The notes under the pieces: model-generated | What the model saw: only the letters and a program-made list of their open reading frames with translations | Database searches by the model: none | Told to the model about the DNA's origin: nothing | Translations under genes and position numbers: made by a program | In this document: positions 16,215-59,100 of the stretch, piece by piece | Layout: every line of letters starts with the position of its first letter | How positions within the stretch are numbered: the first letter of the stretch is position 1 | Assembly: GCA_030737835.1 (NCBI GenBank) | Contig: JAUJYN010000022.1 | Coordinates: 2,448,712 to 2,512,711 of the forward strand | Length of the DNA stretch: 64,000 nucleotides | From: Acorus gramineus | Lineage: Eukaryota > Streptophyta > Magnoliopsida > Acorales > Acoraceae | Direction of reading: 5' to 3'

Positions 16215-16605
16215 CGCGCAGGGTGCGCGCGGGGAGAGGCGCTGCGTGCGGGGGCGTGCGGGGTGCTCGCGGGCGGCGCGAGGCGTTCGGGGCGCGCGCG
16301 GACTGCTGCGGCTTGGTGCAGTGGACGCGCGGTGCCCGGGTGGTGCGGCGGCGTGTCCAGGCGGCGGGCAGGGGCCGGCGGTGCGCGGGGTGCGCGGGCT
16401 GAAGCGTGGCGGTGCACCCGGGCGGTCGGGTGGCCGTGCGGGTGGTTGCCGGGGGTGCGGGTGGTTGCCGGAGTGCTCGGGTTAGCGTGCGTACGGGTCG
16501 TGTGCACGTTTGCCCGAGTGTGGGTGTTTGTTGTGGGTTTTGTATTTATTTGTGTATTTTGGGTATTGTGGATTTATACTTACCAGTTAATACCCTGTCT
16601 TGCAG

Positions 16606-16641
16606 ATCTCGACGGACGGTCGCGCGTCGACCCGATTTCCG
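16606..16641 (+). other. 36-bp conserved LTR cassette with splice-site-like borders
   Basis: It is preceded by CTGTCTTGCAG (acceptor-like) and followed by GTGAGTGG (donor-like), starting ATCTCGACGGACGGTCGCGC. Equivalents on the plus strand are at 11164-11199, 24569-24604, 30340-30375, 34262-34298 (37 bp), 41415-41450 and 54790-54825. On the minus strand they are at 4952-4987, 6288-6323, 38587-38622 and 47158-47193. The length is 36 bp in ten of eleven copies even where the base sequence has diverged. A candidate micro-exon in the element leader; splicing is inferred, not shown. Confidence 0.6.
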
Positions 16642-18074
16642 GTGAGTGGGACAACCCAACCCAGTTTGGGAGGCGTTACATGCTTTGGGCGTGTACCGTC
16701 CTCCCCTGGGGCACATAGTTAGTATTAACTGTTGCAATTATAACCCATGTAAGCATGATGTGTGTGTAGAATGCATGCCACCCTAGACTTGTATGTTAGG
16801 GACTTGCACCCTTAGGTTTTGTGCATGAGCCGTGTATCATGTCACCCCGTTATCATGCTAGGAAAGCCCTGACCTGTGCATGCGTCCTATTAGTTTGATT
16901 TATTTAAATGCAAACTGCTAATATATTAGCATGCTTGGGAATATAGGGGGCCTTGCGAGGTTAACATTGAGACCCGGGTTAGGGTACTCCGTGTTCCTCG
17001 TTTGGTTGTCGGATGTCCTACATCGGGACCTCAGGTTACCCTCCCAAGGTCTCTTTTCCCCTTTTTGTCTTATTTATTTCCCCGCATCCTGGTTATGCGC
17101 GCTGGTGGAATTCTGAGGAATTCAAGACATTAGAGTTGTAGAGATGTGCTGTCAGCGGATCCGAGTGGATCATATGCGATGGATAGGCTGTTCTGTTCCC
17201 TCCGTTGGATCCGTGTAGAGACTACCCGGCGTTAGAAAGGTTGTCCCGTGCAGGGGCTTCCATCAGTAGGCGCCTCCTGATTTGGTAGAAGGACTGCGCC
17301 GAACGTGGGAGTGGCCAAACGACCTACGGAGTGGGGAGAGACTATCGGTGGACCGAGGGTGACCAACAGCCTAGTCAGTCCCAAGAGCCTAGGTCACCTG
17401 TTGAGAGGTGAGGGTGAGGGTATGGTGGGCCGGCGATGCGACGACCCACAGGATTGTGAATGGATGATTATCACCCATTAAGTCCCAACATCCTAGGTCA
17501 CCTATTGAGGGTGAGGGTGAGGGTAAGGGTATGGCGGTTCGGCGATGTGACGAACCCCCGGATTTGTGATGTTTATGCCGCTTGGGCTATTGGCTTGATT
17601 TAAATGTGGTTAATATGAACTGTATGCATGGGTTGTGCTATTCACTGAGCGTGTGGCTCACCCCTCGCATATTATCTTTTTCAGTGATCTCTGAGGGAGG
17701 AGCTTCCCGAGCGACTACACCAGTAGAGGAGTAGCGCCGCGTCCCACGAGTTTTGAGGCCATCAGCACCCTTCTCTGTTGTATGTATATATTCTGTGCTT
17801 GGGCACCTAGTTGGCTTATGTATGGAGTTTATTTGTGTATATATGGACATGTTGGCTCTCACAGGACTTATGATTGTGTATCGAGTCTGTAGTATGTTTT
17901 GACTACAGACTCAGTCTTTTAGCTTCCGCATTTGGTGTATATATTATGTCAGCCCTGCTTTTATCTGTGTTGTCATTTTAGTTGTTGTTTGAGTATGTTA
18001 TTGAATCCTGTTACTGATATCATATATACACTTGCCGCGTCCCGGGGACGGCCGCCCTGGGGCGTGACAAAAGT

Positions 18075-26000: not shown

Positions 26001-26063
26001 TAGACTGCTGATATCATGTATACACTTGCCGCGTCCCGGGGACGACCGCCCTGGGGCGTGACA
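23038..26063 (+). repeat. 3' LTR of the inner element, partly converted
   Basis: 3026 bp from TGTTATATATGTGTC to GGGGCGTGACA. Through most of its length it matches the inner 5' LTR, including the 30-bp GC repeat (24117-24226), the 36-bp cassette (24569-24604) and the mobile module (about 24917-25040). From about 25330 to 25410, and again from about 25665 to the end, it instead matches the outer element's LTRs. Examples are GTGATTACTGAGGCGGAC, TCACAGAACATATG and ACAGATTCAGTATTTTAG. The last two are shared with the outer 3' LTR but not with the outer 5' LTR. Confidence 0.93.
23283..23290 (+). promoter_or_regulatory. TATA box of the A LTR
   Basis: TATATAAA followed by GTGGGATC, about 245 bp into the LTR and upstream of the conserved CACTATTCATCATC. 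This is the clearest core promoter in the window. It implies a short U3 and an R-U5 of about 2.7 kb. Confidence 0.65.
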
Positions 26064-31600: not shown

Positions 31601-31829
31601 ATTGGCTCTCACAGAACATATGATTATGTATCGAGTCTGTAGTATGTTTTTGGATTACAGATTCAGTATTTTAGCTTCCGCTATCTGTGTATATATCATG
31701 TCAGCCTTGCTTTTATCTGTGTTGTCATTTTAGTTGTTGTTTAGAGTATTTTATTGATCTCCTGTATAGACTGCTGATATCATGTATACACTTGCCGCGA
31801 CCAAGGGACGACCGCCCTGGGGCGTGACA
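28666..31829 (+). repeat. 3' LTR of the outer element (subfamily A)
   Basis: 3164 bp, from TGTTATATATGTGTC to GGGGCGTGACA, partner of 9596-12654. It includes the TATA-like AT stretch near 29103, a donor-like GGGTAAGG near 29430, the GC-rich block (about 29560-30200), the 36-bp cassette at 30340-30375, the mobile module near 30689-30805, GGGTGA repeats near 31150 and 31258, and an acceptor-like CTCTCCAG near 31430. Confidence 0.95.
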
Positions 31830-36628: not shown

Positions 36629-36724
36629 GACGTGTCACACCAAGACGGACATGGGCCGTCTGTGGGACCTGCAAATCTGAGTCTAGATCCTTAGTCATAA
36701 TGACGCTTCCGAATGTGATTGATA

Positions 36725-36964
36725 CGAGTAGTCTAAAGCACGACCAGATATGAGGTCTGGTCAGTCGACCTTACTCTTCAGAAACAAGTAGTCTAAGGCA
36801 CGACCAGGTATGAGGTCTGGTCGGTCGACATTACTCTTCGAAGGCGAGTAGTCTAAGGCACGACGAGACATGAGGTCTGGTCGGTCGACCTTACTCCTCG
36901 AAAACGAGTAGTCTAAGGCACGACCAGACATGAGGTCTGGTCGGTTGACCTTACTCCTCGCAGG
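36725..36964 (+). repeat. Four-copy 60-bp tandem repeat in the Tat LTR
   Basis: The unit GAGTAGTCTAAGGCACGACC... followed by AGACATGAGGTCTGGTCGGT and CGACCTTACTC repeats four times at an exact 60-bp period, with a few substitutions per unit. Each unit contains the partial palindrome GACCAGA...TCTGGTC. It lies within the presumed Tat 5' LTR. Confidence 0.92.
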
Positions 36965-37214
36965 CGTACTATGAAACGTATGGGCGAGCACATCAAGAGA
37001 CCCCGAGCAGAATGGAGAAATAGTTAGAAGACCACTAACGCCTATAACTGCCAAGTTGGCACTTAAGGCCCATTACCAGCAGAACGTGGGTAATCAAGAG
37101 CCGACGTGAAGCATAAATATTAGGGATGTTTCCCTGGAAGAAAGCCCACTAGACACTTAGTGGCAAGGCAGTTACAAAGGTCATTAAAGAAACTATGTGT
37201 GGCTTGATCCCCAA

Positions 37215-40207
37215 TGTCACGCCCCAGGGCGGCCGTCCCCGGGACGCGGCAAGTGTATATATATGATATCAGCAGTCAATACAGGAAGTCAATAACATAC
37301 CCTAAACAACATCCAAAATGGCAACACAGACAACAAAGGGGCTGACATGATATATACACAAATAGCGGAAGCTAAAAGACTGAGTCTGTAAATCAAAACA
37401 TATTACAGACTCGATACATAATCAACTGTCCTGTGAGAGCCAATATATACAACACGACTTGCAATATAATACAAACGTGTGCCCAAGCACGGAAATATAA
37501 TACATACAATCAAGAAGGGATGCTGATAGCCTCTAACACTCGTGGAATGTGGCGCTGCTCCGCTACTGCTGAGGTCCCTCGGGGAGCTCCTCCTCCAGAT
37601 CCGACTCAGATGACACTGGAGAAAAAAATATGCGAGGGGTGAGCCACACGCTCAGTGAATAGCACAACCCATGCATCACAATTTATATTAACCACAATAA
37701 TTATTCAAAGCCTCAAAGTGGCAGGAACTACACAATCCAGTGGGTCGCAACATCGTCGACCCACCACACCCTCACCCTCACCCTCCAATAGGTGACATAG
37801 GATATTGGGACTGACTAGGCTGTTAATCACCCTTGGTCCACCGATAGTCTCTCCTCCACTCCGTAGGCCGCCTGGTCTACTCCCACAATTCAGCACAGTC
37901 CGTCCCAAATCAGGAGGTGCCTACTGATGGGAGCCCTCTGTCAGGAAGGCCTGTCTAACGCTGGGGCAGTCTCTATACGGATCCAATGAAGGGAAAAGAA
38001 ACAGCCTATCCACACGTATACGATCCACTTGGATCCGCGGTATTCCCTTAACTGGAAAAAGAAACCTTGGGAGGGCACCATGAGGTCCCGATATAGGATA
38101 TCCCGACAACCAAACAAGGAACACGGAGTACCCTAGCCCGGGTCTCAATGCTGACTTCGCAAGGCCCCTTAATCTAGAGAAGGGAGATTCTAATGGTGTC
38201 ATGAATTCTTCAGAATTCCTCCAGGGCGCATAACCAAGATGCGGGGAACATATACAATAACCATCAAGTTATAATACTTACTAAGGCATGCATAAATACC
38301 ATAAGTTCGCATTTAATTTAATAAATTAAACTAATAGGACACATGCATAGGTCGAGGCTTTCCTAGCATGAAAACATGGTGACAGGATGCATGGCTCTTA
38401 CACATATCCTAAGGGTGCAAGTCCCTAACATACAAGGTCTAGGGTGTCATGCATACTACATATTAATCATGCTTGCATAGATTACATATTATACAAGTTA
38501 ATATTAAACTATGGTGCCCCAGGGGAGGACGGTATATGCCCAAGTGCATATAGCGCCTCCCTACTTGGTTGGGTTGTCCCACTCACTAATAATCGGGTCG
38601 TCGCGCGACCGTCCGTCAAGATCTGCAAGACAGGGTAATCAACTCGGTGAGTAAAATACACAAATATATACAAAAATACACTAAAATACCCAACACTCGG
38701 ACAAGCGTACATACGGCCTGTACGCACGCGAGTCCGAGCACCCCGACTCAATCCCGAACCCCGGGCAGCCGTACGCACGGCCACCCGCCCCAGGCGCATA
38801 GCCGTGCCCCAGCCCGCACGCCCAGACGCACGCCGAGCCCCTGCCTGCATGCCTGGACACGCTGACGAGCCCCCCGGGTGCACCACGCGCTCACTGCACC
38901 CCAGCGCAGAAACCCGCGCGCACACCCGCACGCCCTACACCCCAGCGCAGCACCCCGCGCGCACCACCCACTCGCCTCACCGCGCGCGCACAGCATGCAC
39001 TGCGCCTCTGCCCAGCGCTCCGCCCGCACGCCCCCGCACAGCCCCCTGAGCGCAGCACCCGCACGCGGCCCCGTGCGCATAGCACGCACTGCGCCTCTGC
39101 GCATCGCTCCGTGCGCACGCCCTCGCACGGCGCCCAGCGCGCAGCACCCGCACACTCCTACTCCACCCGCGCGCACGCCCGTGCGCATGCCTGCGCGCCC
39201 GCGCGCGTGCCCTGCCAGCCTGCTCTGCCCGCCCTGCCTGCCAGCCCGCCTGCCTGCGCTGCCTGCGCTGCTAGCCTACCCGAGACAACCCTACCACCTC
39301 CCCGACGGCCACCAATGGCCACCAACAGCCACCAACCGCCACCAACAGCCACCCAAACCACCATGAAAGCCTTACATACCCAAAAACACCTCCTAATCAA
39401 GCATCTAAACAAGAAAGGAAGGAAAAGAAACTCACCCAAGGAGAGGAAAGGAAGGGGAGGATGATCGGGTGCTCTTCGCGCACCGAAACACCGCCTCCAA
39501 GACTACCACCACCGAGATCTCCAACTCAGCCAAAGAGGGGCTGAAACAGAGGAGAAAAGAGGGTATGAGAAGGGGTCACACATGTGGGAATTCGAATCCA
39601 AGACCACCGGAAGGTAGATCGGGTTCTTACCTATCCTTTCTCTTCTTAGGGTTTTTGATTTCCACCACTAGAACTAGGTCAAAAGGGGGGATTAAAGAGA
39701 GGGAGAGAGAGAGAAATTTTGGAGAAGATGATGAATAGGAGGCTTATGTTGTCGTGGGATTTCTTTATACTCACACACCCACCACACACTCTCACACCCA
39801 CACTTAGATTAGCCCTAATTAGGTTTAGGCTAGGATTAGTGAGGTTTAAGTGCACTTTGACTTGGGTCAACCCATCCACACTAGAAAACAAAAGAGTTGA
39901 CCAAGTCATGGGCCCACATTGACCAAGTCAAGTCTCCCAATGACTTCTCGCTCGGTCAAAACCCGGATACGCTTCGAAACTGTGAAATTCTGAAACATTA
40001 CCGGAATTCGATGAAATTTTCGTGAGTGGCTTGGAATGGCACCAGGACACATAATATGCAGTTAGATTTTCAATCGGAGTCCTCAAACTCAGGATGATAG
40101 CTAAAAGTCCAAAATTTTAGCGGTTCCGATCAAAAAATGAAAAAGCTGAAAAACTGCCAGAATGTTCCAATGGTTACCAAAAGGCTAAAAGTGACACATA
40201 TGTAACA
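37215..40207 (-). repeat. Solo LTR, subfamily A, inside the Tat 5' LTR
   Basis: 2993 bp on the minus strand, flanked by a perfect CCCAA duplication at 37210-37214 and 40208-40212. It has the 36-bp cassette at 38587-38622, the GC-rich block at about 38700-39290 and the palindrome at 38203-38218. Unlike other A LTRs, its usual module site is empty (near 38255-38285) and the module sits at a second site (38054-38166). Confidence 0.95.
38054..38166 (-). mobile_element. LTR-borne module at a second site (candidate MITE)
   Basis: About 113 bp with inner ends CCTTGGGAGG and CTTCGCAAGG on the plus strand. It is flanked by CCTTAACT (38046-38053) and CCTTAATCT (38167-38175), a probable imperfect target duplication. 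It lies on the other side of the GAATTC palindrome from the site used in the outer and inner LTRs. Confidence 0.6.
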
Positions 40208-40368
40208 CCCAAGGGGTATGTAGGCAGCCTATAAAGTGGTCGCGAGATAGCACTCTAAAGGCCCAGTCAGTGATTGAGTCAAAGACAGTCATAAATTCTT
40301 ATACTCCAAGTTTATTTTACCACAAAAAGATATAAAAATTTAACTAAAGGGGGTAAATATCCACCTCA
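40208..40368 (+). repeat. End of the Tat 5' LTR
   Basis: Resumes the Tat LTR after the solo LTR and ends ...CACCTCA just before the primer site. It contains GTCGCGAGATAGCACTCTAA, which resembles the 25-bp repeat in the Tat 3' region near 63258-63319. Confidence 0.65.
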
Positions 40369-40371
40369 ATT

Positions 40372-40388
40372 TGGCGTCGTTTGTGGGA
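40372..40388 (+). other. Primer binding site of the Tat element
   Basis: TGGCGTCGTTTGTGGG matches, with one change, the TGGCGCCGT-type primer site widespread in plant Tat and Athila elements. It sits three bases past the LTR end. Confidence 0.8.
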
Positions 40389-40406
40389 TACTGAAACAAA
40401 AAGCCA

Positions 40407-40606
40407 ATGTCCGCAATGTCAGATCCCAGTGACACCAATGCAGGGGAACGACAAGAACAAGACGTTCTCCCATCTGACTCTGCTGATGGCTCACCGGAGA
40501 CCCTGGTTAGTCAAGTCCAGGACCTCAGGCGGATAACAGAGTCCACCCAAGAAACTCTATTTACCTGTCTACAGGGATCCATCCAGCAGATGATCGAAGC
40601 CTCAAT
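40407..40606 (+). pseudogene. Start of the Tat gag region
   Basis: An acidic N-terminus beginning MSAMSDPSDTNAGERQEQ, followed by a coiled-coil-like SQVQDLRRITESTQETLF stretch, opens 20 bp after the primer site. The region ends where the compound insert (40607-57826) begins; the rest of gag lies at 57827 onward. Fossil. Confidence 0.75.
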
Positions 40607-41277
40607 GTGTTATGCCTGTGTCATTTGGAGCCATTTCGGTTAAGCCTTGGTCACATCTAGGTCATTCAGGGCCTTTTCTTTTTTTCGATCGGAGTCGCTA
40701 AAATTTTGGCTTTTAGCCACCTACGGGAGTTAGAGTACTCTGATTGGAAATCTAACTATATATTATGGGTCCTGGTACCGTTTAGTATTACCCATAAAAA
40801 TTTCATCAAATTCTGGTAACGTTTTAAAAAATATGCAGTTCCGAATCGCATCCGGGTTTGGCCATTACTGGGTTTCGGTGGGCGAGATATTTTTGAGTGT
40901 GTGGTGCTTCTCCGCACGCTTCCCAATAAAGCAAAAATAAGTGACTCTCACAGGACATTAGAGGCCATCAACATCCTTCCTTTTGATTGTATGTATATAT
41001 TTCCGTGCTTGGGCACCGTTTGCATATTATTTGGATGTGTGTGTGTATATTGGCTCTCACAGGACATTTGATTATGTATCGAGTCTGTATTATGTTTTTG
41101 AATTACAAACTCAGTCTTTTAGCTTTTGCTATCTGTTTATACATCATGTCAGCCTTGCTTTCATCTGTGTTGTCATTTTAGTTGTTGTTTAGAGTATTTT
41201 ATTGATCTCCTGTATAGACTGCTGATATCATGTATACACTTGCCGCGTGCCGGGGACGGCTGCCCTGGGGTGTGACA
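40607..41277 (+). repeat. Short chimeric LTR (B start, A-like end)
   Basis: 671 bp. The first 330 bp or so match the B LTR start; from about 40945 (CTCTCACAGGACAT) the sequence matches the last 330 bp of an LTR and ends GGGGTGTGACA. The 3-kb middle is absent. No primer site follows; an A LTR fragment abuts it directly. Confidence 0.75.
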
Positions 41278-42743
41278 GCGGGAGTGTGTCGAGGCGCTCG
41301 GACTCGCGTGCGTACGGGCCCGTATGCATGCTTGTCCAAGTGTTGGGTATTTCTAGCATATTTCTTGTGTATTTGTGTATTTTACTCACCATTTTGGTTT
41401 CCCATGTCTTGCAGATCTTGACGAGCGGTCACGCGACGACCCGGGTATTGGTGAGTGGGACAATCCAACCCAGTAGGGAGGCGTTCGATGCACGTAGGCG
41501 TGCATTGCCCTCCCTTGGGGCACCATAGTTGCATATTAGCTACTATTAACTGTAAACTATGCCTTGCATGAATATTATGTTGTATCCATGCCCCCCTTAG
41601 ACCTGCATGTTAGGGATATGCACCCTTATATTGATTATTATGATGTGTCCATGCCACCCTAGATTTGTATGCTAGGGATATACACCCTTACATCATGTTA
41701 GAGGCCCGTGCCTGCCTAGACACCTTGCCCGACCTGTGCATATTCCCAAGTAGTTTAATTTGATTAAATCAAATGCGAGCTTATGGTTATTAGCATGCCT
41801 TAGAGAATATTATAACCTCAATGTTATAATATATGTCTCCCCGCATCTTAGTTATGCGCCCTGGAGGAATTCTTGAGAATTCATGACCTTAGTAGAGTTA
41901 CAACCGGTGTCGACGGATCCAAGAGGATCGTATCCGCGTGACTAGGCTGTCTTCTCCTTATTGGTTGGGATCCGAGGTAGGAACTCCCCGGCGTTAGCTG
42001 GCCTGGCAGAGGGCTCCCATCTGTAGGTACCTCCTGATGTGTTTCGGACTGTGCTGATCATGGGAGTATACGAGGTGAATGCTACGAGCGTGGGAGAGGC
42101 TACCCGGTGGGACCAGGGGTGGGAAGCGGTCTAGTATGCCCCAAGAGGCCCATATCACCCCCAGGAAAGGGTGAGGGTGAGGGGGGGGGGGGTGGGAGGT
42201 GGGTTGGCGATGAAATAACCCATTAGAATGTTGATGTTGCGCCCGTGTTAGGGGCTATGAATTGTATAAGGTTGATATGAATTGTGCTGCATGGGTTGTG
42301 CTATTCACTGAGCGTGTGGCTCACCCCTCGCATATATTTTTCTATAGTTATATCTGAGTCGGATCAGAAGGAGGAGCTCCCCGAGGCACATCAGCGGTAG
42401 CGGAGCAGCGTCACGTTCTGCGTGTGAGAGGCCATCAGCATCCCCCTTTGATTGTATGTATTGTATTCCGTGCTTGGGCACATGTTTGTATTACATTTGG
42501 ATGTCGTTGTATATATTGGCTCTCACAGGACAGTTTATTATGTATCGAGTCTGTAATATGTTTTTGAATTATAGATTCAGTCTTTTAGCTTCCGCTATTT
42601 GTGTATATATCATGTCAGCCTCCTTGTTGTCTGTGTTGTCAGTGTTGATATTGTTTAGAGTATATTATTGACCTCTTGTATAGACTGCTGATATCATATA
42701 TACCATTGCCGCGCCTCGGGGACGGCCGCCCTGGGGCGTGACA
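41278..42743 (+). repeat. A-like LTR fragment (middle to end)
   Basis: Begins in the middle of an LTR (CGGACTCGCGTGCGTACGGG) and runs to GGGGCGTGACA. Has the 36-bp cassette at 41415-41450. The module site near 41810 is empty (GAATATTATAACCTC). Contains a GGGTGA run and a G stretch near 42175-42200. Confidence 0.85.
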
Positions 42744-43605
42744 TGCGGGGCTCTCGACGCGCCCACGGCCACCTCAACCACCACCACCACCACGCCTCCT
42801 CTTCAGCCTCTCTCCAGCCCTCATTGGCTGCAAATCAGGGGGGGGGGGACAAGATATGAGAGGGTGCTTGAGAGAGGAGAATCAATAACAACAACAACAC
42901 CTACACAAACTTTTCTCTTCCTCCTTCACCTTCTCCTTCTCTTCTCTTTGAGGAAATAACACAAACACATGGGAGGGGATTGAAAGAGAGAAAGAGAGAC
43001 CCAAGAGAGTCCACGTGAGAGTGAGAGGGAGAGAGAGAGAGAGATATTTTTTGGGCCAATAAATATCCAAAAGAGGGATACAAATGACCAATTCATCCCT
43101 GACTAGAAATTCTGTACATGCTTCACTAGAACAGCCATAACTTCCTCAATATAGCTCCGAATTGCACAATTCAAGATCCACTGGAAAGCCAAGAAGATTA
43201 TCTACAACTTTCATGTTTATGCCAAGATCAAATAATCCCTCCAGCTATTCCGAAATGAGGGCTAAACATTGAACAGGGCTGCTGCCAGAATTTTTCATCC
43301 CCGGGGTATACTTGGAAAAATACCCATAACTTTTACTACATGAATCCAGTTGATCTAATTCCACTTTTGTACAAAAGCTAACTCAAAACTGAGCATCTCA
43401 TAATAAAATCATATTTAAACCTCTTCATCTTGGATTTTAACAAAATTAAATCCAAATACCAATTCGGAAATACATAACTTCTAGGAGAAAAATTATGTAG
43501 CCAAATTTTCAATCAGAGCGCTCCGACTCCTGCAGGTGGCTAAAAGCCAAAATTTTAGCGACTCTGATCGAAAAAAATAAGGCTCCAAATGACACAGGCA
43601 TAACA
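42744..43605 (-). repeat. B LTR start fragment, minus strand
   Basis: First 862 bp or so of a B LTR in reverse, ending with the complement of TGTTATGCCTGTGTCA at 43605. It closely resembles 32821-33620, including the CTCTCTCT and GTTGTTGTTG tracts. It directly adjoins the minus-strand internal remnant, so it is its 3' LTR remnant. Confidence 0.85.
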
Positions 43606-45502
43606 TTTTGCTCCCAAGTGGTCTTATGCACCAGACTGGTGCTACCGACACACTTTAATCAAAGGAATGGTCTTAGAATGGAGCTTCTTCACACGTTTGT
43701 CCATGATCTCGATCCACTGCTACACGAACGACGAAACCAGCTCAAGGGTGAGGCAGTCGAACGGAATAACATGAGAAGGACCGAGGACATAACGCCTCAG
43801 CTTCGAGACAAGGACGACGTCGTGGGCATGAGCCAACTTTGGGGGAAAGGCTACATGTCAAGCCACCTCCCCAATCCACTCAAGGATGAGAACTTTTCCG
43901 AAGAAGGGCCGACTCAGCTTGCCCCAATGTCGAAACAGAGGATGCCCTTAAACTGGGACACCTTCAAGAAAAACATGGTCGCCAAACCCGAAGGTAATCT
44001 CCTAGAGACGATGACTTGCGTAGCCCTTTTGTCAGTTCCGGGAGGTGCGGATGCACACACTAACCAATCGCAAGGTAAAAAAAATAACTTATGGCCGCTC
44101 CAACTGGCGCTCGTAGAGTGCCTTTTACAGTTCCATCTCGAATGGCAGTCGTCTTGCAGGCATACCCCACCAAATGGGTGGTGCCTCACCCAACTGTCCC
44201 AACTCGAGCATGCAAGCACTTAACATGTCCTCCAAGGTCTGAATCGTCCTCTTTGCCTGGCCATTCGTCGGCGATGAAATGCTATACCTTAAAATGGAGG
44301 CTTGCGCCTAAGCCTACCAAGGCTGCGCCACAACCTAAAAGTAACCCTCGCGTCTCAATCCGAAATAGCACCGGCCAGAGTGCCATAAAGACGAAAAATC
44401 AAGAAGGCAAATACCCGCATCAAGGCGTTCAGAGACTCAGTCAGTCAGATAGGGAGGAAAGCGCGGACTTAGTCAGTCGGTCAATGATCAGCTAGACGGT
44501 GTTGCGACCCGAATGTGACTTTAGTGAGCCTGCAACAATCCATGATAACTCACTCCCACGTCCACTAAGGAATCTCGATGAACTAACACTTTCCACGCAA
44601 TAATAATTCTTGAACTTTGCCTGAGGGCATGCCAACCAAGGGGCAACGAAGTTACCCATATCGCCTTTACATTGATAACCTCAACGAAGACTACCTCAGA
44701 GTAGTCCACGGAAACCCAATAAAACTTTTGAGGTCCCCGAAGGCATCCAGCGCATTCGTCAACCTTGACGGCAATACTTAGAACTCGTAGTGCCTGAAAC
44801 GGTCATCAACGGAATGCCCGACTCCCAGATCTCCAATTGTGGTACCCCGCGCGAAGATCGATCTAAAAGTAGACATTGACTCCATAGCTGGTCAAACAGA
44901 TCATCAATTCGTGGCAAGGGGTACCTGATCTTCAACCCCTATAGGAAGATCAAAACAACTCCTCAAATGATTAAGTCTGAATTCCGCTCCTCGAGCATCT
45001 CAATGCTCCTCGGCCTGGCGCTCATGATGACCTTGACACTCTAGGTAAGCCGATCAACCGCACTTAATCCGCAAGATGCGCAACCAAAGGTCGTTGAACC
45101 CTGACAACGCCTATGCGACATCATCTACCTGATATGGCGGTTGAGTCCCATCACGAACGCTAGCATCGCGTCTCCTCATTTGCGACCAATGTGGGGGCAA
45201 AACGTGACAATATCGAAAACTGTGCTTCACATGCTGCCACTAACTGGTCGCCCAACTACAATCATTAGAACTCCAGCATCCTGCACTCAATGGGCAGATT
45301 CATCACATGGATCCACGCCCTCGACATCATCCGGTAGCACTCCCCCAGCGTGGCCTCTACCTGGTAGCCTCCCATGCCCACTATCTCTGCCATATGGGCG
45401 CACCAACAAGCATCCTGGATAGTATCTCGGAGCACCTCACAGGGCTCTAGTCTCTATCGGGTAGCCTCAACACGTGATGATATATTGAAGCGACTCCAGA
45501 TG
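43606..45502 (-). pseudogene. Decayed chromovirus interior, minus strand
   Basis: Reverse-strand pol-derived sequence, recognisable by alignment with the plus-strand copy at about 51290-53400 and by integrase-like phrases (LRRYV-type region near 43790, TDGQ-like region near 44260). Heavily decayed with many breaks. Continues at 49007-49415 beyond the inserted solo LTR. Confidence 0.75.
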
Positions 45503-48500
45503 TGTCACGCCCCAGGGCGGCCGTCCCCGGGACGCGGCAAGTGTATATAAAATATCAGAATCTACACAGGAGGTCAATAATATATCATACACAAACAACC
45601 AGAATGACACACAGACAACAAAGAGGCTGACATGATATATACACCAAATGCGGAAGCAAAAGACTGAATCTGTAAAATAAAAAATCTTCCAACAGACTCG
45701 ATACTCAATCATCTGTCCTATGAGAGCCAATATACACTAATACAACTGAATATAAACAGACGCGTGCCAAGCACGGAAATAAAATACATACAGCCAAGAC
45801 GGGATGCTGATAACCTCTGGCACTCGCGGAACGTAGCGCTGCTCCGCTACTGAAGGAATCCCTCGGAAAGCTCCAACTGCTGCTCCGGCTCCAGCTCAGG
45901 CTCAGTGACCACTGGGGAAAACATATGCGAGGGGTGAGCCACACGCTCAGTGAACAGCACAACCCATGCATCACAGACAATATTTACCACAATTCCATTA
46001 TTTATCCAGCCTCTAAGTGACATAACAACATGATCTGGTGGTTCGTACATCGCCGAACCACCACACCCTCACCCTCACCCACCAATGGGTGACATAGGCT
46101 ATTGGGACTGATAATCACCCATAGACAAATCCAGCGGGTCGCTCATCGCCAACCCACTACACCCTCACCCTCACCCTACCACGGGTGACATAGGATTTTG
46201 GGACTGACTAGGCTGTTGGTCACCCTTGGTCCACCGATAGTCTCTCCTCCACTCCGTAGGCCGCTGGCCTTCACCCATAACTTCAGCACAGTCCGTCACA
46301 AATATCGGGAGGCGCCTACTGATGGGAGCCCTCGAAAGGGACGACCTTATCACGCTGGGGCAGTCTCTACACGGATCCAACGAAGGGAAACAGAACAGCC
46401 TATCCATACGCATATGATCCACTCGGATCCGCCAACAACACATCTCTACAACTCAAATGTCATGAACTCTTCAGAGTTCCTCCAGGGCGCATAACCAAGA
46501 TGCGGGGAAACATGTACAATAAAAGCAAGGTTGGAATATCATTGGGGGAAAGAAACTCGGGAGGGCGGCGTGAGTTCCCGATATAGGATACCCCGACAAC
46601 CAAACAAGGAACACGGAGTACCCTAACCCAGGTCTCACCGCTGTCCTCGCAAGGCCCCTCCCCTATAATATTCACTAGAATTGCTAATAATCATACCAGT
46701 TATAACATTACTTATAATATTACTGGGACTAGAAACCTTGGGAGGGCAGCATGAGGTCCCGATACAGGACATCCCGACAACCAAACAAGGAACACGGAGT
46801 ACCCTAACACTTGTCTCAATGTTGACCTCGCAAGGCTCCTCCCTATAATATTATCTAAGGCATGCAATTTAACATACACTAGCATTTAATTTAATAAATA
46901 AACTAGCAGGACGCATGCATGGGCCAAGGTTTCCTTGCATGAAAATAGGGGGCATGGTGCATGGCTCTTACACCTATCCTAAAGGTGCAAGTCCCTAACA
47001 TACAAAGACTAGGGTAGCATGCATTCTACATTTAAATCATGCAAGCATGGATTACATATTACTGCCGGTTAATATACATCCATGGTGCCCCAGGAGAGGT
47101 CGGTATACGCCCAAACGCGTATAACGCCTCTCTACTGGGTTGGATTGTCCCACTCACCGAAGATCGGGTCATCGCGCGACCGCCCGTCAAGATCTGCAAG
47201 ACAGACATTTATACGGTCAGTTAAAATCCACAACTACTACCAAAGACATCAAAAATACACAAAACCCACAAACAAACACCCAACACTCGGGCAAACGTGC
47301 ATACGACCCGCACGCACGCTAGCCCGAGCACCCCGGCACACTCCCGCACCCCCGGCAACCACCCGCACGGTCACCCGCCCTCGGATGCGCCGCCGCGCCA
47401 CCGCCCGCGCACCCAATCGCACCGTCGGGCCCCTGCCCGCCGCCTGGACACGCCGCCTAGCCTCCCGGGTGCACCGCGCGCCCACTGCGCCACAGCGCAG
47501 CAGCCCGCGCGCACCCCGCACGCTTCGCGCTGGCCAGCGAGCACCCCGCACGCCCCGCGCGCACCTCCAGCCCCCTATCCGCGCGCACTCCGCGCGCACC
47601 TACCAGCCTCTACCCGCGCGCACCACGCGCGCACCACCCGCTCGCACCCACTGCACCGCGCGCACGCCTGCGCCTCAGCCCAGAGCCCGTATCCGCGGCC
47701 CAGCACCCGACGCTCAGCGCCCAGCACCCGGGACCCTCACCCAGCGCCCACGCGCACGCCCGCGCAACACGCGCCTGGCAGCACGCGCCCAGCGCGCCTG
47801 CCTGCCTGCGCGCGCTGCTGCCCGCGCTGGCTGCCTGCGCGCGTCGCCGAGTGGCCCGAGCACCGCTCGCCCTGCACGCCCAGCCACTGCCCGCCTGATG
47901 CCCGAGCACCCCTGCCAGCTGCCCGAGCATGGCCTGCCCAGCCGGCCTGCCCTGCTCGCACAGCCCGCAGCCAGCCTACCCGCATGCCTCCCCCGCACCC
48001 CCCGAGCGCACGCCGACGCGCGCGCCCGCGCGCACGCGCTGGCGCGCCTGCTCCCAGCCTACCCGGCTAGCCCCCTCCCAGCGTGCCTAGCACGCCTGCG
48101 CACAGCACGCCCAGCCTGCCTGCAGCACCACCCGAGCGCACGCCGCGTGCACGCCTGCGCGCACGCACATGCGCGCCCGGCACCTGGTGCCCCAGCCTGC
48201 TGCGCCTGCTTCCTACTCTCCTGGAACAGCCTCCCAGCCTACCCGGACAGCCCAGCACCCCTACCCGAGCACCCAACCTCCTACCACCGGCCACCCCAAG
48301 GCCTCCGACCACCACCACTGCCCTCCGACGGCCAGCCCACCGCCGCCGACCACCCCCCAACCACAAATCCGACCTCCTAACAAGCACCTATGCAAGAAAA
48401 GAGGGGAAAGAGGGCTTACCGAGGGGAAGAAGGGAAGTCTGGATGCTCTCCGCGCACCGAAACCTTTCCCCAAGGGCTTCCAACGCCCGGATCTCACTCG

Positions 48501-49001
48501 GCCTTCGAAACAGCCCAAAATAGAGGAGAAGAGAGGGGGGATGGAGGGGCAAAACTCGCCGGAATTCGAATTTGAAAGCACCAGGGTGTAGATCCCGATC
48601 TACACTTCTATGCTTTAGGTTTTTAGGTTTGAGGGGTCTAGGGGCTCAAAAGTGAGAAAAGGAGAGAGGGGACAGAGAGAAATCACTTGGTAGGGATGAT
48701 GAATAGTGGTCAACCAATTTTAGATCACCCCTTATATAGTAAGTGACTTAAAATACCCGGATACGCCCCGAAACTGTGAAATTTCAGAAACGTTACCGGA
48801 ATTCGATGAAATTTTTGTGAGAGGCTTAAAATGGCACCAGGACACCAAATATGCAGTTAGATTTCCAATCGGAGTCCTCTAACTCAGGACGATAGCTAAC
48901 AGTCCAAAAATTAGCGGTTCCGATCGAAAACTGAAAAAAATGAAAAACTGCCAGAACGCTCCAACGGTTACCAGCAGGCTAAAAGTGACACATATATAAC
49001 A
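45503..49001 (-). repeat. Solo LTR, subfamily A, with a doubled module
   Basis: 3499 bp, minus strand, flanked by AGATG (45498-45502) and ATATG (49002-49006). The plus-strand derivative copy near 51278 shows the uninterrupted sequence. It is longer than its relatives partly because the LTR-borne module is present twice (about 46537-46660 and 46723-46843). Also has the 36-bp cassette at 47158-47193 and a GC-rich block (about 47300-48200). Confidence 0.9.
46723..46843 (-). mobile_element. LTR-borne 121-bp module with a perfect 10-bp duplication (candidate MITE)
   Basis: Flanked on both sides by TATAATATTA (46713-46722 and 46844-46853). Subterminal inverted sequence: CCTTGCGAGG at one end and CCTTGGGAGG reading inward from the other. 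LTRs without the module show one GAATATTATAACCTC at this place. Other copies: about 11513-11623, 16945-17060, 24917-25040, 30689-30805 and 51001-51112 on the plus strand; 38054-38166, about 46537-46660 and 49159-49276 on the minus strand. Non-coding. Confidence 0.65.
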
Positions 49002-49006
49002 ATATG

Positions 49007-49415
49007 CCACTATGGAACCCAGTCCATAAGCGATCGCCAACCAAGCTGCAATAGGATGCACCCAATCCTGATCGTACACATCACCACTCGCTACAGCAAC
49101 TTCCAAGTGAAAGGAAAAATCAATCATCAAATAGATGTTTCAAAGATTTTCCCTGACTGGGGGAAAAAGAACACCTTGGGAGGGCACCATGAGGTTTCGA
49201 TATAGGATATCCCGACAACCAAACAAGGAACACGGAGTACCCTAGCCCGGGTCTCAACGATGACCCCGCAAGGCCCCTTAATCCTGAGCAAGAAAATGGA
49301 AGAAGACATCGCCCATTAATGAACAATATGCCACATCCTCAAAACTTGAAACGAGCACCGTACGTGAACTCCACGGTTACCAGCAATACCGATGCATGGC
49401 AACGAAGCTCCAATA
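49007..49415 (-). pseudogene. Decayed derivative interior, minus strand (5' part)
   Basis: Reverse-strand match to about 50870-51285 of the plus-strand derivative, including the captured module at 49159-49276. It ends near 49415-49437, where sequence switches to a plus-strand B LTR. Non-coding in its present state. Confidence 0.7.
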
Positions 49416-49436
49416 TTCCATATACTAGGGGACGGC

Positions 49437-50563
49437 CGGAGTATACCAGGTAGAGGCTACCCGGGGAAAGGGCTACCGGTGGACAAAGGATGTAGAGCGA
49501 TGAGTTGAGGAGATCGGGTTGTAGATACTACCCGGGAGAGGGTTAACGAATGATGTTGCGAGCGTGGGAATCGTTCTCCCCTTCGTTGGATCCGAGTAGG
49601 GACTCCCCGGCGTTGGAAAGCTGTCCTGACAGAGGGCTCCCATCTGTAGGTACCTCCGATGCGTCGGAGGGTGCTGATCATGGGAGTATACCAGGTAGAG
49701 GCTACGGAGTGAGGGAGAGGCTACCGGTGGACCAAGGGTGTAGAGCGGTCTAAATCTCTTCCAAAAGCCTATGTCACCCCTAAAGGGTGAGGGTGAGGAT
49801 GAGGTGAAAAATATCGCCGCGTGACCCATTCGTTGTTCGACCGTTCCCATAGTTGTTGGGTCCGGTCTTGTATCGATGTTTAAAGGCATCGTTTGAGCAA
49901 TTATCTAGATGTAGATGATCCAGTAGTGTTGTGTAGACCAGTAATTCCGGGTCTCTTTGACCGACGGTATGGTCTCTCCCCAAAAGTCCCAAGAGTCTCC
50001 CTCTGGGAGTGAGGGTGAGGGTGAGGTTGGTCGCGCCGCCGCGTGACCCTGTTATCCATTGGGTTTCTACCCATGTTTTTCCTTGAAAAAGGGAATTGAT
50101 TATGTATTGAACTGTAGTATGGTGATTGGTTTCCAGCCACTCACTAAGCTTGTAGCTCACCCTCGCATACTATTTCTTTTCAGGGCCAGTGTTGGGCGTG
50201 GAGCTGGAGCTTTCCTGTGGCGTGGTCTTATGGGCGTGGAGCGTTCTTCCGACGGGTGGCGAGTGCGAGGCTGTCAGCATTCCTAGAGTCATTTTATGCT
50301 TTGTAATTCGTGCATGTGGCACAGGTTGTATTTTCTTTGGTCTAGACTTGGCTCTCACAGGACAGTGATTGTGTATTCGAGTCTGTAATAATATTTTTGA
50401 TTTACAGACATTGTTTATATATTATGCTTCCGCTTTCAGTCAGTTATCATTATCTTGCTTTGCCACCTTGTGTATTGTTGTTGGAGTCTTTATTGACCTC
50501 AGGTATTGATAGCTGATATTTATTATTGCCACGTCTCGGGGACGGCCGCCCTGGGGTGTGACA
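49437..50563 (+). repeat. Partial 5' LTR, subfamily B
   Basis: Last 1.1 kb of a B LTR, ending GGGGTGTGACA before the primer site. Matches the ends of 32821-36628 and 53489-57159. Confidence 0.88.
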
Positions 50564-50569
50564 AAAAGT

Positions 50570-50585
50570 TGGTATCAGAGCCTGG
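50570..50585 (+). other. Primer binding site (initiator Met tRNA), derivative
   Basis: TGGTATCAGAGCCTGG, as in the A elements. Confidence 0.92.
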
Positions 50586-51000
50586 TCCTGTCAGAGCCTA
50601 AGTCTAGTCGTATAGATGATGAGTCGTAGGATTGTCATCCGAGTACTCTTGTTTTAGAAGTTATCTTAGGTTGCTGACATGCCTCCTCGCATCCGTTGAC
50701 GTGGACGTGACCCCCTGGACCCACCCTTAAGTTGTCGACTGGGTTAGGGTCAGTTGTTGGATCCCTTGTTGTGGGATTAAGGCTTGGGTAGGAGATTCTA
50801 GCCTAGTAGTGTGATAATGATGAATTGGTCAAAATTTCTAAGGTATGGATTGCGTCTTGAAAATGGAGCTTCTTTCCCGTGTATCGGTATTGCTGGTAAC
50901 CATTGAGTTCGCGTGCGGTGCCAGTTTCAAGTGTTGAGGATGTGGCGTATTGCTCATTAAGGGTGATGTCTTCTTCCAGTCTTCCTACTCAGGATTAAGG

Positions 51001-51112
51001 GGCCTTGCAGGGTCAGCGTTGAGACCCGGGCTAGGGTACTCCATGTTCCTTGTTTGGTTGTCGGGATATCCTATATCGGGACCTCATGGTGCCCTTTCGA
51101 GGTTCTTTTCCC
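51001..51112 (+). mobile_element. LTR-borne module captured in the derivative interior
   Basis: Matches the module of A LTRs (GAGACCCGGGCTAGGGTACT, TCCTTGTTTGGTTGTCGGG). Flanks AGGATTAAGG and AGTCAAGG resemble the second-site flanks of 38054-38166, so it may have arrived with neighbouring LTR sequence. Confidence 0.65.
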
Positions 51113-52613
51113 AGTCAAGGAATACCTTAGAAGCATCAAATTGATGATGGATTTTTCCTCTCACTTGGAAGGTGCTGTAGCGAGTGGTGATGCATACGAT
51201 CGGGATTGGGTGCATCCTATTGCAGCTTGGTGGGCGATTGCTTGTGGACTGGGTTCCATAGTGGCATCTGGAGTCGCTTTGATATATCATTGTGTGTTGT
51301 AGCTGCCCGGTTGAGGCCAGAGCCCTGTGAGGTGCTCCCAGATGCTATGCTTGTTGGTGCGCCCATATGGTAGAGATAGCGGGCTTGGGAGGCTACTAGG
51401 TAGAGGCCACACCGGGAGAGTGCTACTGGATGATGTCGAGAGCGTGGACTCCCTGTGATGAATCTACCCATGGAGTGCAGGATGCTGGAGTTCCAATGGT
51501 TATAGATGAGCGACCTATCTCTGGTGGCATGTGAAGCACAGTTGTGGATACTGTCGCATTTTGCCCCGCATTGGTAGCAAATAAGGTGACGCGATGCTAG
51601 CGTTCGTGATGGGACTCAACCGCCCTATCGGATAGATGACGTCGCATAGGCATTGTCGAGGTTCGACGACCCCTTATTGCATGTCTTGTGGATTAAGTGC
51701 GGTTGAGCAGCTTACCAAGCGTGTAAGTGTTATCATGAGCGCCAGCTATGCTCGAGGAGCAGAATCTGGACTTAATTGTTCAAGGTGTTGTTTTTATCTC
51801 CCGTGGAGGTTGAAGATCAATTACCTTTGCCGCGAATCGATGATCTGTTTGACCAACTCTGGGAGCGAGTGTCTGCTGTTAGATCGATCTTCGCACAAGG
51901 GTACCACAAGTCAGAGATCCGGGAGTTAGACATCCCGTAGATGGCCTTTCGTGACCGTTCGGGCACTGTGAGTTTTAAGTACTGCCGTTGGGGTTGACGA
52001 ATGCGCCGGATGCCTTCGTGGATCTCAAAAGTTTTATTGGGCTTCCGTGGACTACTTTGGGGTAGTCTTCATTGAGATTGCTGTGGTGTGATGAAAAGGT
52101 GATGTGGGTGACCTTGTTTCCCCAGGTTGGCATGCCCTCAGGCAAAGTTTGAGAATCATCATCATCGCGTTGGAAAGCGTCAGTCCATGGAGATTCCTCA
52201 GTGGACGTGGGAGTGGGTTATCAGGGATTGTTGCGGACTCGCTAATGTCACGTTCGGGTCACGACGCCGTCTAGGTGATCAATGACCGACTGACTAAGTC
52301 CACGCTTCCCTCCCTAATCCGACTGATTGAGTCTCTGGACGCCTTGACGTGGGTTTTCACCTTCGCGATTGTTCGTCTTCATGGCACTCCAGTCGGCGCT
52401 ATTTTCGGTTGAGACACGAGGGTTACTTTGAGGTTGTGGCACAGCCTTGGCAGGCTTTGGCGTGAGCCTCCATTTAAGTATAGCGTTTCATCGCCGATGG
52501 ACAGCCAGACAAAGAGGACGATTCAGACCTTGGAGGACATGCTAAGTGCCTGCGTGCTTGATGATGAGGGCAGTTGGGTGAGGCACCACCCATTTGTTGG
52601 GGTATGCCTGCAA

Positions 52614-52985
52614 GACGACTGCCATTTGAGCATCCTGATGGTACTGTGAAAGGCACTCTACAGGCGCAGTTTTATACCTCCCTTGTGTTGGGACGGTTGA
52701 GGAGCGCCAGTTGGAGGGGCCACAAATTATTTATTTGACCTTGTAGTGGCCAGGTTGGTTCATGTGTGCATCCCTTGTGTTGGGATGCTCAAATGGCAAG
52801 ACGGCTGCCATTTGAGCATCCTGATGGTACTGTGAAAGGCACTCTACAGGCGTAGTTTTATACCTCCCTTGTGTTGGGACGGTTGAGGAGCGCCAGTTGG
52901 AGGGGCCACAAATTATTTATTTGACCTTGTAGTGGCCAGGTTGGTTCATGTGTGCATCCACACCTCCCAGAACCGACAAAAGGGC
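52614..52985 (+). repeat. 186-bp tandem duplication
   Basis: GCCATTTGAGCATCCTGATG starts at 52621 and again at 52807, and near-identical sequence follows through GGTTCATGTGTGCATCC. The near-identity against a decayed background suggests a recent local duplication. Confidence 0.88.
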
Positions 52986-53488
52986 TACGCAGGTCATCGT
53001 CGCCAGGAGGCTTACCTTTGGGTTTGGCGACCATGTTTTCATGAAGGTGTCCTAGTTTAAGGGCATCCTATGTTTTGACTTTCGGGGCAAGCTGAGTTGG
53101 CTCTTTAATGGGACTGTTTCTCGTCATTGAGTGGATTGGGGAGGTGGCTTGTCATGTAGCCTTTCCCCCACAGCTGGCTCATGCCCACGACGTCGTCCTT
53201 GTCTCATGGCCGAGGCGTTATGTCCAAGATCCTGCTCATGTCACTCCGTTTGACCGTCTCATCCTTGAGCTGGATTGGTCGTTCGCGGAGCAGTGGATCG
53301 AGGTCAAGGACCAACATGAGAAGAGGCTCCACGCTAAGACCGTTCTTTTGATTTGAGTGTGTCGGTAGCGCCAGACTGGTGCATGGACCACTTGGGAGCA
53401 AAAGGTCTATGCGAGATACTTGCTATATGCGGTCTTCCCTTTGGGTTTCCTTAAATTTCAAGGACTAAATTTCCTAAGGGGGGAAGAA

Positions 53489-56400: not shown

Positions 56401-57159
56401 TTCAGTGGTGTTGCGTAGACCAGTAATCTCAGGTCTCCTCGACCAACGGTATGGTCTCTCCCCAAAAGTCCCAAGAATCTCCCTTCGGGAGTGAGGGTGA
56501 GGGTGAGGTCGGTGATTCAGTAGTGTTGTGTGGACCAGTAATTCAGCGTCTCTTTCACCAACGGTATGGTCTCTCCCCAAAAGTCCCAAGAGTCTTCCTC
56601 CGGGAGTGAGGGTGAGGGTGAGGTTGGTCACGCCGTCGCGTGGCCTTGTTATCCATTGGGTTTCTACCCATGTTTTCCTTGAGAGGAAATTGTTTGAGTA
56701 TTGAACTGTTGTATGGTGATTGGTTTCCAGCCACTCACTGAGCTTGTAGCTCACCCCTCGCAACTGTTTCTTTTCAGGGGCAGTGTTGGGCGTGGAGCTG
56801 GAGCTTTCCTGTGGCGTGGTCTTATGGGCGTGGAGCGTTCTTCCGGCGGGTGGGGAGTGCGAGGCTGTCAGCAGTCCTAGAGTCAATTTATGTATTGTAA
56901 ATCGTGCATGTTGCACAGGTTGTATTTTATTTGGTCTAGACTTGGCTCTCACAAGACAGTGATTGTGTATTCGAGTCTGTAATAATGTTTTGGTTTACAG
57001 ACATTGTTTATATATTATGCTTCCGCTTTTCAGTCAGTTATCATTATCCTTGCTTTGCCACATTGTGTGTTGTTGTTGGAGTCTTTATTGACCTCAGGTA
57101 TTGATAGCTGATATTTCATTATTGCCACGTCTCGGGGACGGCCGCCCTAGGGCGTGACA
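53489..57159 (+). repeat. 3' LTR of the derivative (subfamily B)
   Basis: 3671 bp from TGTTATGCCTGTGTCATTTG to GGGCGTGACA, preceded by the purine tract CTAAGGGGGGAAGAA (53474-53488). It has a GT microsatellite (about 53901-53935), a donor-like TTTTGGTAAGG near 54268, the 36-bp cassette at 54790-54825, the GAATTC palindrome near 55706, internal repeats near 55925-56210, and G-rich GGGTGA repeat units of about 118 bp near 56250-56630. Confidence 0.92.
54790..54825 (+). other. 36-bp cassette, subfamily B example
   Basis: ATCTCGTAGACCGGACGCGC... between GTGTTTTGCAG and GTGAGTGG. Its sequence differs clearly from the A version, but length and borders are the same. Confidence 0.6.
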
Positions 57160-57826
57160 CTCCCTCCGGGAGTGAGGGTGAGGGTGAGGTTGGTGATCCA
57201 GTACTGTTGTGTGGGCCAGTAATCCCGGGTCTCCTCGACCAACGGTATGGTCTCTCTCCAAAAGACCCAAGAGTCTTCCTCCGGGAGTGAGGGTGAGAGT
57301 GAGCGTGACCCTGTTATCCATTGGGTTTCTACCCATGTTTTTCCTTGAAAGGAAATTGTGTTAGCATTGAACTGTGTAATGGGATTGGTTTCCAGTCACT
57401 CACTGAGCTTGTAGCTCACCCTCGCATATTGTTTCTTTTCAGGGGCAGTGTTGGGCGTGGAGCTAGAGCTTTCCTGTGGCGTGGTCTTATGGGCGTGGAG
57501 CGTTCTTCCTGTGGGTGGTGAGTGCGAGGCTGTCAGCAGTCCTAGAGTCATTTTTATGTATTGTAAATTGTGCATGTGGCATAGGTTGTATTTTATTTGG
57601 ACTAGGCTTGGCTCTCACAGGACAGTGATTGTGTATTCGAGTCTGTAATAATGTTTTTGGTTTACAGACATTGTTTATATATTATGCTTCCGCTTTTCAG
57701 TCAGTTATCATTATCTTTGCTTTGCCACCTTGTGTGTTGTTGTTGGAGTCTTTATTGACCTCAGGTATTGATAGCTGATATTTCATTATTGCCATGTCTC
57801 AGGGACGGCCGCCCTTGGGCCTGACA
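57160..57826 (+). repeat. Extra B LTR 3' end
   Basis: A second copy of the last 667 bp or so of the B LTR directly abuts the end of the 3' LTR. It ends GGGCCTGACA, after which the Tat gag resumes. It may be the original right end of the B element that first hit gag. Confidence 0.82.
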
Positions 57827-59100
57827 CGATGCAACAGTTCTATACAAACATGCATCAACAACAGCCAGTCCAGGAGGGAATTCGATCACCACCTCCTGTA
57901 CTGCCCAACCCCCCAACCGTCAATGCTCAAGGTTCGGAGGGAAGTACCTCTTCCTCCAATCAAAGGCAGTGGTCCCGTCGACGTTCTCGCACTCATCGAG
58001 CAGGTGGACGGCTTCATGAAGAGTAGAGGCGCGAACGTTCACCTCATGGAGAACACTCCGCTCGGTGGGAGGCTTCGCGGAGAAAAATACACCCAAGAGC
58101 GCTCGACTTTACGTGAAGTACCCGAAGGGCCTCGGCTTGACTCACCACCCCACTAGCAAGCTGGGGGAGCAGTCATGTGGCCTCATTACACCTTGCGCTC
58201 TGAGGTACGGCGCATTCTGAGTTACGAAATGGTGGAGCATGCAATACGGGGATTCGCCTCCCCGTTTTGCGTAGAGATTCTCAGATAACGACTTCCCCGA
58301 AAGTTTGTTCAACCCAAATTCAAGATACACAATGGTACGACGGATCCCTACGATCATATCTTGGTGTTCCGTCATTCAATGGCATTGTACGAGCTTTATG
58401 ATGGGTTGATGTGCGCCTCTTCCCCTGCAACCTGGAAGGGGTCGCATTGACTTGGTTCCATCTCCTTCCACCTGCGACAATAAGAATTTTTGAGGAGCTC
58501 GACACTATGTTTGCTGAGCGCTTCATCTGTAGTCGACGCAGGAAGAAGGATCTCGGTGATCTGATGAAGATCCAGATGCAGTCAGGAGAGACGATTTGGC
58601 AGTACGTCGATCGCTTCCGTATCTTGAAGTTTGAAGTCGAAGACTGCAATGAAGACGCTGCAATCATGGCTTTCCGGAATGGTCTTCCATCTGAAAACGG
58701 CCTCAAGGAGTCGCTTATCAAGCGGATTTGATGGGGCGTGCTGAAAAGTACGCCAAGGTGGAAGAAGAATCCAAGATTCTTAAGCAGGCAGCGGCTGCAC
58801 CCCGGTCTTCACGAAAGGCTGCTACCTCATTACCAGCAACAAAACGCCAGCAGGAGCTATGTCAAAAGGACCAGCGGAGCAAGAAGGGCAAGAAGCCTGG
58901 TGCCTCAACTAATGAAGTGTGAGAAGGACGGGGATGTTCTTTGAGATCCCTCTGTCGCAGATCCTGTCCAGGATCCAGGGGGAGCCTTGGTTCAGATGGC
59001 CTGTGCCCATGAGAAGCAACGAGTCAAAGCGGGATCAAACTCTTCACTATGATTACCACAAGAGTGTGGGCCATACTACCGACCAATGCCGTATCCTCTG
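57827..59100 (+). pseudogene. Tat gag region, main part
   Basis: Proline- and glutamine-rich start (MHQQQPVQEG, SPPPVLPNPP), then a capsid domain at about 58290-58730 (MFAERFICSRRRKKDLGDL, IQMQSGETIWQYVDRFRIL, AFRNGLPSENGLKESL). A lysine-rich linker follows. Near 59041-59095 a Tat-type zinc-finger-like YHKSVGHTTDQC stretch is seen. Structural protein of the particle. Heavily broken. Confidence 0.85.

Follow-up and report, generated by a model that had tools for sequence, protein, structure and literature searches.

A module of roughly 115-120 bp recurs in the long terminal repeats (LTRs) and interiors of retrotransposons in Acorus gramineus, and it raises the question of how so short a segment came to lie at several positions in related elements. 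The original prediction held that the module hops between and within LTRs. We considered this claim in the window, that is, the whole 64-kb stretch of DNA that was analysed, and in copies sampled from the source assembly.

Nine module copies at three addresses in the window

Searching the window by blastn with 46723-46843 recovered nine copies at the predicted places, and the eight non-self matches had 84-93% identity. The copies occupied three addresses: six were at site A, one was at site B (38039-38187), and two were at site C. Those at site A comprised one in each of the four LTRs of two nested elements, as had been predicted, and two in the solo LTR 45503-49001. In this solo LTR, the first copy of the pair, belonging to lineage A-I, was located at 46551-46658 (blastn match 46551-46662), and the second, belonging to lineage A-II, at 46731-46839 (query 46723-46843), both on the forward strand. 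The perfect 10-bp duplication predicted around the second copy was found on the same strand, with TATAATATTA at 46713-46722 (left) and 46844-46853 (right); the window contains exactly these two exact occurrences, compared with 0.04 expected. The subterminal stretches CCTTGGGAGG and CCTTGCGAGG, predicted to be near-inverted, matched as an inverted pair at 9/10 positions.

The four blastn matches in the nested elements were on the reverse strand, at 11515-11623 and 30691-30799 in the 5' and 3' LTRs of the outer element and at 16947-17054 and 24919-25026 in the 5' and 3' LTRs of the inner one. All were without the left repeat, which these site-A alleles appear to have lost. The nest spans 9597-31829, where a long-LTR element (LTRs 15031-18069 and 23039-26063) lies within an element of the same group (LTRs 9597-12654 and 28666-31829).

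At site B, the solo LTR 37215-40207 carried a forward-strand unit of 149 bp (38039-38187; core 38063-38168; blastn match 38060-38169), with approximately 15 bp of the LTR replaced. This unit exceeds the module, and it matched the DNA of site C (51126-50980) over 149 bp with 89% identity. The site-C copies were located at 49168-49277 on the forward strand (blastn match 49168-49278) and at 50999-51106 on the reverse strand (blastn match 50998-51114), the latter inside a non-autonomous derivative. They had been described as lying in each of two derivative interiors; both copies are present, but they occupy opposite arms, left and right, of a single inverted duplication (49004-49412 against 51267-50864, 88%) and therefore count as one address. 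An inverted structure was also seen at 43598-53412, in which 43598-49412, minus the solo LTR 45503-49001, is an inverted copy of 53412-50864 at 82-88%; it is centred on an LTR with a primer-binding site at 50569.

Site A was also found empty, as predicted for three LTRs of the window. The sequence GAATATTATAACCTC matched exactly in the solo LTR 5035-7828 (5934-5948, reverse strand) and in the LTR 41278-42743 (41805-41819, forward strand), and nowhere else in the window with up to three mismatches, a tolerance at which approximately 1.4 chance matches are expected. The solo LTR 37215-40207, which carries its module at site B, had a diverged form of the empty site at the corresponding aligned position (38268-38291, forward strand). 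Just before this LTR, a short tandem repeat with a period of approximately 60 bp was observed at 36721-36966. The solo LTR 45503-49001 was flanked by AGATG and ATATG (45498-49006), likely a 5-bp target duplication with one change.

Copy number and addresses in the assembly

The source assembly of A. gramineus comprises 398.6 Mb, and a published k-mer estimate for the genome is approximately 400.3 Mb (PMC10281966, in part). Copies were counted with a 31-bp module core, allowing up to three mismatches, and the reversed pattern served as the control. The core matched 15,539 places in the assembly (7,935 + 7,604), and the reversed core matched none.

All sampled DNA together amounted to 352,847 bases and contained 98 module copies. 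It included 198,711 bases sampled from the assembly (L009-L028), loci picked for matching A or B (L002-L008 and L034-L053), and 20 loci drawn from 100 listed core matches, all on contig C1; L001 was excluded because it was identical to a window copy. Address labels were assigned by flank patterns, and the flanks themselves were read for 53 copies. Every one of the 98 copies was assigned to one of the three addresses (63 to A, 22 to B, 13 to C, and none elsewhere), and all three belong to one group of Ty3/gypsy elements. When the 53 copies from loci picked regardless of address were examined separately, 38 were at A, 2 at B, 13 at C, and none elsewhere, which bounds free copies at roughly 6% (95%) and allows for rare ones. 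The loci L009-L028 held 23 copies (15 at A and 8 at C), and the contig-C1 loci held 21 exact cores (17 at A, 1 at B, and 3 at C). Five 10-kb stretches elsewhere, of lower GC content (50 kb), contained no copies.

The predicted hopping between and within LTRs was not borne out, as the 98 copies were located at three aligned addresses in one retroelement group. A tabulation of flanks had been put forward with the prediction as a way to check it, and its outcome went against hopping, with 0/98 copies outside A, B, and C and none in the 50 kb elsewhere. Self-driven hopping is not supported by the sampled copies, and the confinement of these copies to three addresses in one group suggests that the copy number comes mainly from carrier retrotransposition.

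The reading that we favour, with a probability of roughly 0.6, takes the module for an imperfect, MITE-like hairpin in a decayed state, a passenger of one Ty3/gypsy group and its non-autonomous derivatives, which multiplied with its carriers and was reshuffled by recombination. The module probably entered once, as a tiny insertion, and would have come to site A by transposase-type or similar insertion. Recombination, for example template switching between co-packaged RNAs, may then have moved it between carriers, and its copy number would have been reached through retrotransposition of the carriers rather than through movement of its own. The overall reading of the original prediction survives here in part: the insertion at site A and the imperfect inverted-repeat core are kept, and hopping between and within LTRs is not.

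Junctions at sites A, B and C

Site A in the LTR was filled at 28 loci and empty at 16, the latter count excluding L027 and L028, which are not true site-A loci. The empty loci had a single target, reading TATAATATTC in nine and a diverged form ending in AATACTTA in the other seven. A filled and an empty allele on the same backbone could be compared directly: the sequence is gaggt-TATAATATTA-[module]-TATAATATTC-cctaagg in L034 and aaggt-TATAATATTC-cctaagg in L043. Of the 87 copies in which the core could be recognised, 19 retained flanking repeats of 9-11 bp, each time TATAATATT-like, and 68 were without a 9-bp repeat; in the displaced-pair control, a repeat of at least 9 bp occurred in 3/289. 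The site-A target is AT-rich. Site A is a true insertion, and it is the only address where a target site duplication was found with a matching empty site. Of the claim of transposition rather than LTR divergence, insertion at site A is supported, with its 9-11 bp repeat and its empty alleles on the same backbone, and free hopping is not.

These alleles also bear on the explanation by ancestral LTR indels only, according to which the module is an old LTR segment that some LTRs have lost and that recombination has relocated. The small number of aligned addresses and the recombination between LTR types would agree with it, but the flanking repeat is present in filled alleles only, the empty ones have a single target, and site B is derived, so that we consider it extremely unlikely. 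Perfect inverted repeats are not present at the ends of the module, and these ends vary from one site-A lineage to another. A MULE-type origin would be allowed by the length of the repeat, at A only, and is a candidate origin.

Site B is located approximately 200 bp from site A in the same LTR. Its native stretch, GGATCCGC...CTCTAATG, was found in A-empty and A-filled LTRs alike, which identifies the B state as derived. The left junction was matched in 17/20 loci, where GGATCCGC runs directly into the unit; the LTR resumes at CTCTAC, and about 15 bp of it are missing. No flanking repeat was seen at site B in the sampled loci. At one B junction, the LTR and the C unit have the bases ACT in common, and the other (left) junction has no shared bases. 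Together with its LTR flanks, site B was present at full length with at least 96% identity in at least 40 places (40 scored of 798 candidates).

Junctions of this kind raise the explanation that reverse transcriptase placed the hairpin everywhere, through template jumps between retroelement RNAs, with the repeat at A resulting from re-copying after a jump. In the copies with flanks read, the orientation was the same relative to the LTR sense strand, although three or four events are too few to show an orientation bias. Site B, with no repeat, approximately 15 bp lost, and ACT in common with the C unit at one junction, agrees with such jumps, as do the variable unit edges (125-150 bp), the chimeric carriers, and the recombination of A and B. 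Conversely, the left B junction is without shared bases, and the repeat at A is clean and 9-11 bp long, which is more usual for a DNA transposon. We regard jumps at every site as possible but unlikely. It is improbable, in our estimation, that the hairpin is a portable retroelement part, copied into new LTR positions with variable edges when reverse transcriptase jumps near the base of a strong hairpin; we are just as doubtful that such copying sometimes leaves a 9-11 bp repeat imitating a DNA-transposon footprint. For the passenger hairpin that we favour, the first entry could have been made either by a transposase or by a reverse-transcriptase jump, and C may plausibly have come first, followed by B and then A. 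In this module, insertion by a transposase can be set against capture by reverse transcriptase in a testable way.

Site C lies within a non-autonomous derivative lacking most of gag. By exact pattern, 409 filled sites were found with flanks at the filled spacing, a count that leaves out alleles with changed flanks, and the exact pattern spanning an empty site C had no match in the assembly; site C looks fixed. A target repeat at C was considered and rejected: 6/9 bases matched, yet 8.7% of control pairs reach this. The derivative with site C was collinear with the window over approximately 1.6 kb in three loci (L009, L012, and L018) and approximately 1 kb in two (L021 and L022). On contig C1, near-identical same-strand copies of site C were observed 5,666 bp apart, at 8731284 and 8736950, as would be expected if site C were part of a pair of LTRs at that locus.

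MITEs are short and non-coding, with terminal inverted repeats, a target duplication with a corresponding empty site, and many dispersed insertions, and Mutator-like (MULE) MITEs share their ends with a transposase-bearing MULE. The module resembles MITEs, especially Mutator-like ones, in its small size and non-coding nature, its inverted-repeat core, its AT-rich target, and the 9-11 bp repeat with empty alleles at A. It differs from them in having imperfect inverted repeats at its ends and a copy number that tracks the LTR carriers; many independent dispersed insertions were not seen, with 0/98 sampled copies (of 15,539 matches) off-address. An active non-autonomous DNA transposon (a MULE-type MITE), still moving by itself and often landing in LTRs, would explain the repeat and the empty alleles at A, the inverted-repeat core, and the 15,539 core matches. 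We nevertheless consider it most improbable, given that no sampled copy lay outside the three addresses or in the 50 kb elsewhere, that no empty C was found by exact pattern, and that B has no repeat. Since carriers can supply the number of a MITE-like repeat, a large number of copies together with a single clean target repeat does not in itself prove self-mobility.

Recombination, hairpin structure and carriers

All four combinations of the A and B states exist among the LTRs (neither, A alone, B alone, and both), and seven LTRs were without the module at both sites. Given the native B site that they share, these combinations require recombination or repeated events. The presence states at A and B mark recombination between LTR lineages, in a host that is sister to all other monocots.

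The pair in the solo LTR 45503-49001 was examined for its origin. In the module tree, which has few columns, 40/68 inner branches open, and an unsettled bootstrap, copy 46551 was placed in clade A-I (100/95) and copy 46731 in clade A-II (98/92). Both lineages also occur singly elsewhere, A-I in L016 and L027 and A-II in L012 and L028. A simple tandem duplication was rejected, as the copies belong to different clades that occur separately, and the pair is better explained by unequal recombination between two filled LTRs. The spacer of the pair could be aligned to the LTR sequence flanking site A on the right, and LTR 41278 gave the best result (0/1000 shuffles); over the four comparisons with right flanks, 0, 5, 8, and 128/1000 shuffles were equally good, the last value, for LTR 37215, being no fit. 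Two-module LTRs formed one clade in the LTR tree (100/99). The perfect repeat at 46723 had been taken as a sign of transposition; it flanks a site-A copy adjoining a second site-A lineage and, with the two lineages set side by side, is the site-A repeat itself and marks no extra or independent hop.

Of 11 site-A modules from B-carrying LTRs, 8 were placed among B and C modules and 1, a chimeric copy (L042), among C modules; the remaining 2 (L052 and L069) were inside the main A-II clade (98/92). On the LTR tree, the A-filled state needs five changes, and neither this tree nor the module tree is well resolved. At L010:5365-5467, a single module had a left flank of A-I type and a right flank of A-II type, as expected from recombination between the copies of a pair. 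Carriers are chimeric, since a piece of LTR in L010, L012, and L022 is connected through a related unit to pieces of pol or of the derivative. Exchange of parts between related families, non-autonomous ones included, has been described as giving chimeric lineages in Athila (PMC2410132, in part). There, according to the same partial source, the gag, pol, and env genes are exchanged, whereas the exchanged part in Acorus is a short non-coding hairpin, located in LTRs and inside a derivative.

The core of the module measures approximately 106 bp, and the units extend to 125-150 bp with variable edges. When the inverted alignment was compared with shuffles, 0-1/1000 were as good for four copies from A and B, and 38 and 247/1000 for two C copies, where the signal is weak. 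The outermost bases of the module are not inverted. Extension of the hairpin into the flanks at B and C was rejected, because the arms beyond the core were beaten by more than 20/1000 shuffles in 18/20 copies. Folding gave z values of -4.5 and -4.1 for the 149-bp B unit and of -2.2 and -2.3 for the 121-bp module; with the core only, median values were modest (-2.8 for 39 A copies, -1.5 for 10 B copies, and -1.7 for 10 C copies).

Stem changes were analysed in sets of 58 copies and 70 distinct cores, from which copy A_L042_372, with its right part replaced, was excluded. In the 58 copies, 95.1% of the stem cells were paired, a value reached by 0/500 shuffles, and two-sided changes affected 5 pairs compared with 3-6 in slid controls (24/500 shuffles reach 5). 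With the 70 cores and five reference folds, changes from Watson-Crick pairs to G-U and to A-C stood at 32:30, 35:27, 33:33, 24:30, and 32:27 on the sense strand and at 33:30, 27:29, 37:34, 31:23, and 29:30 on the opposite strand. A selected RNA hairpin had been suggested by a lean toward G-U in the 58 copies (38 vs 25) and was rejected, since the lean vanished with the 70 distinct cores. The sampled cores showed neither the clear compensatory changes nor the tolerance of G-U in the RNA strand that mark a structured cis-acting RNA. Similarity of the module was 0.96, 0.92, and 0.89, compared with 0.86, 0.83, and 0.79 for the median LTR stretch, and 51/387, 34/365, and 19/372 LTR windows were as conserved. 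Rfam (hammerhead and others) gave no match at gathering score in 37900-51300, and no match was found in viral or prokaryote contigs.

These data bear on the explanation that the module serves its carriers as a cis-acting RNA hairpin, for example for packaging, which was kept by selection and exchanged between them. Its occurrence both in LTRs and in a derivative lacking most of gag, its stable fold with 95.1% of stem cells paired, and a similarity above that of the median LTR stretch would suit such a role. However, G-U and A-C changes were equally frequent on both strands, two-sided changes did not exceed those of the slid controls, a number of LTR windows were equally conserved, seven LTRs do without the module at A and B, and Rfam had no match in 37900-51300; we therefore hold it to be very improbable. 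Stem changes like those of neutral DNA fit an old inverted-repeat insert, as in the passenger reading, and speak against a selected RNA signal.

The frames of the carriers matched gag, protease, RT, RNase H, and integrase domains in Pfam, above the cut-off except for rve (25 bits; cut-off 32.6); a chromodomain match of 19.5 bits was below its cut-off of 25.1. The gag frame of the inner element had seven protein matches, all from A. gramineus. The carriers may belong to the Del/Tekay lineage of chromoviruses. They resemble Del/Tekay-type chromovirus LTRs in being Ty3/gypsy elements with a chromodomain match (below cut-off) and with a GC-rich stretch in their long LTR. Titles and abstract openings in the literature yielded no description of the module, which is not a claim of its absence from print. 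For Del LTRs, CpG islands of variable length have been described (PMC4029996, in part); in the same partial source, and unlike in the carriers studied here, different LTR positions are not described as having a hairpin or MITE-like module in common.

Within the solo LTR 45503-49001, the stretch 47300-48300 was strikingly GC-rich, like the CpG islands of Del LTRs (PMC4029996, in part). Tandem LTR 3' ends were observed at 56479-57160 and 57160-57827 (91%), and a similar pair of LTR 3' ends was located at 40960-41282 and 42427-42749 (85%).
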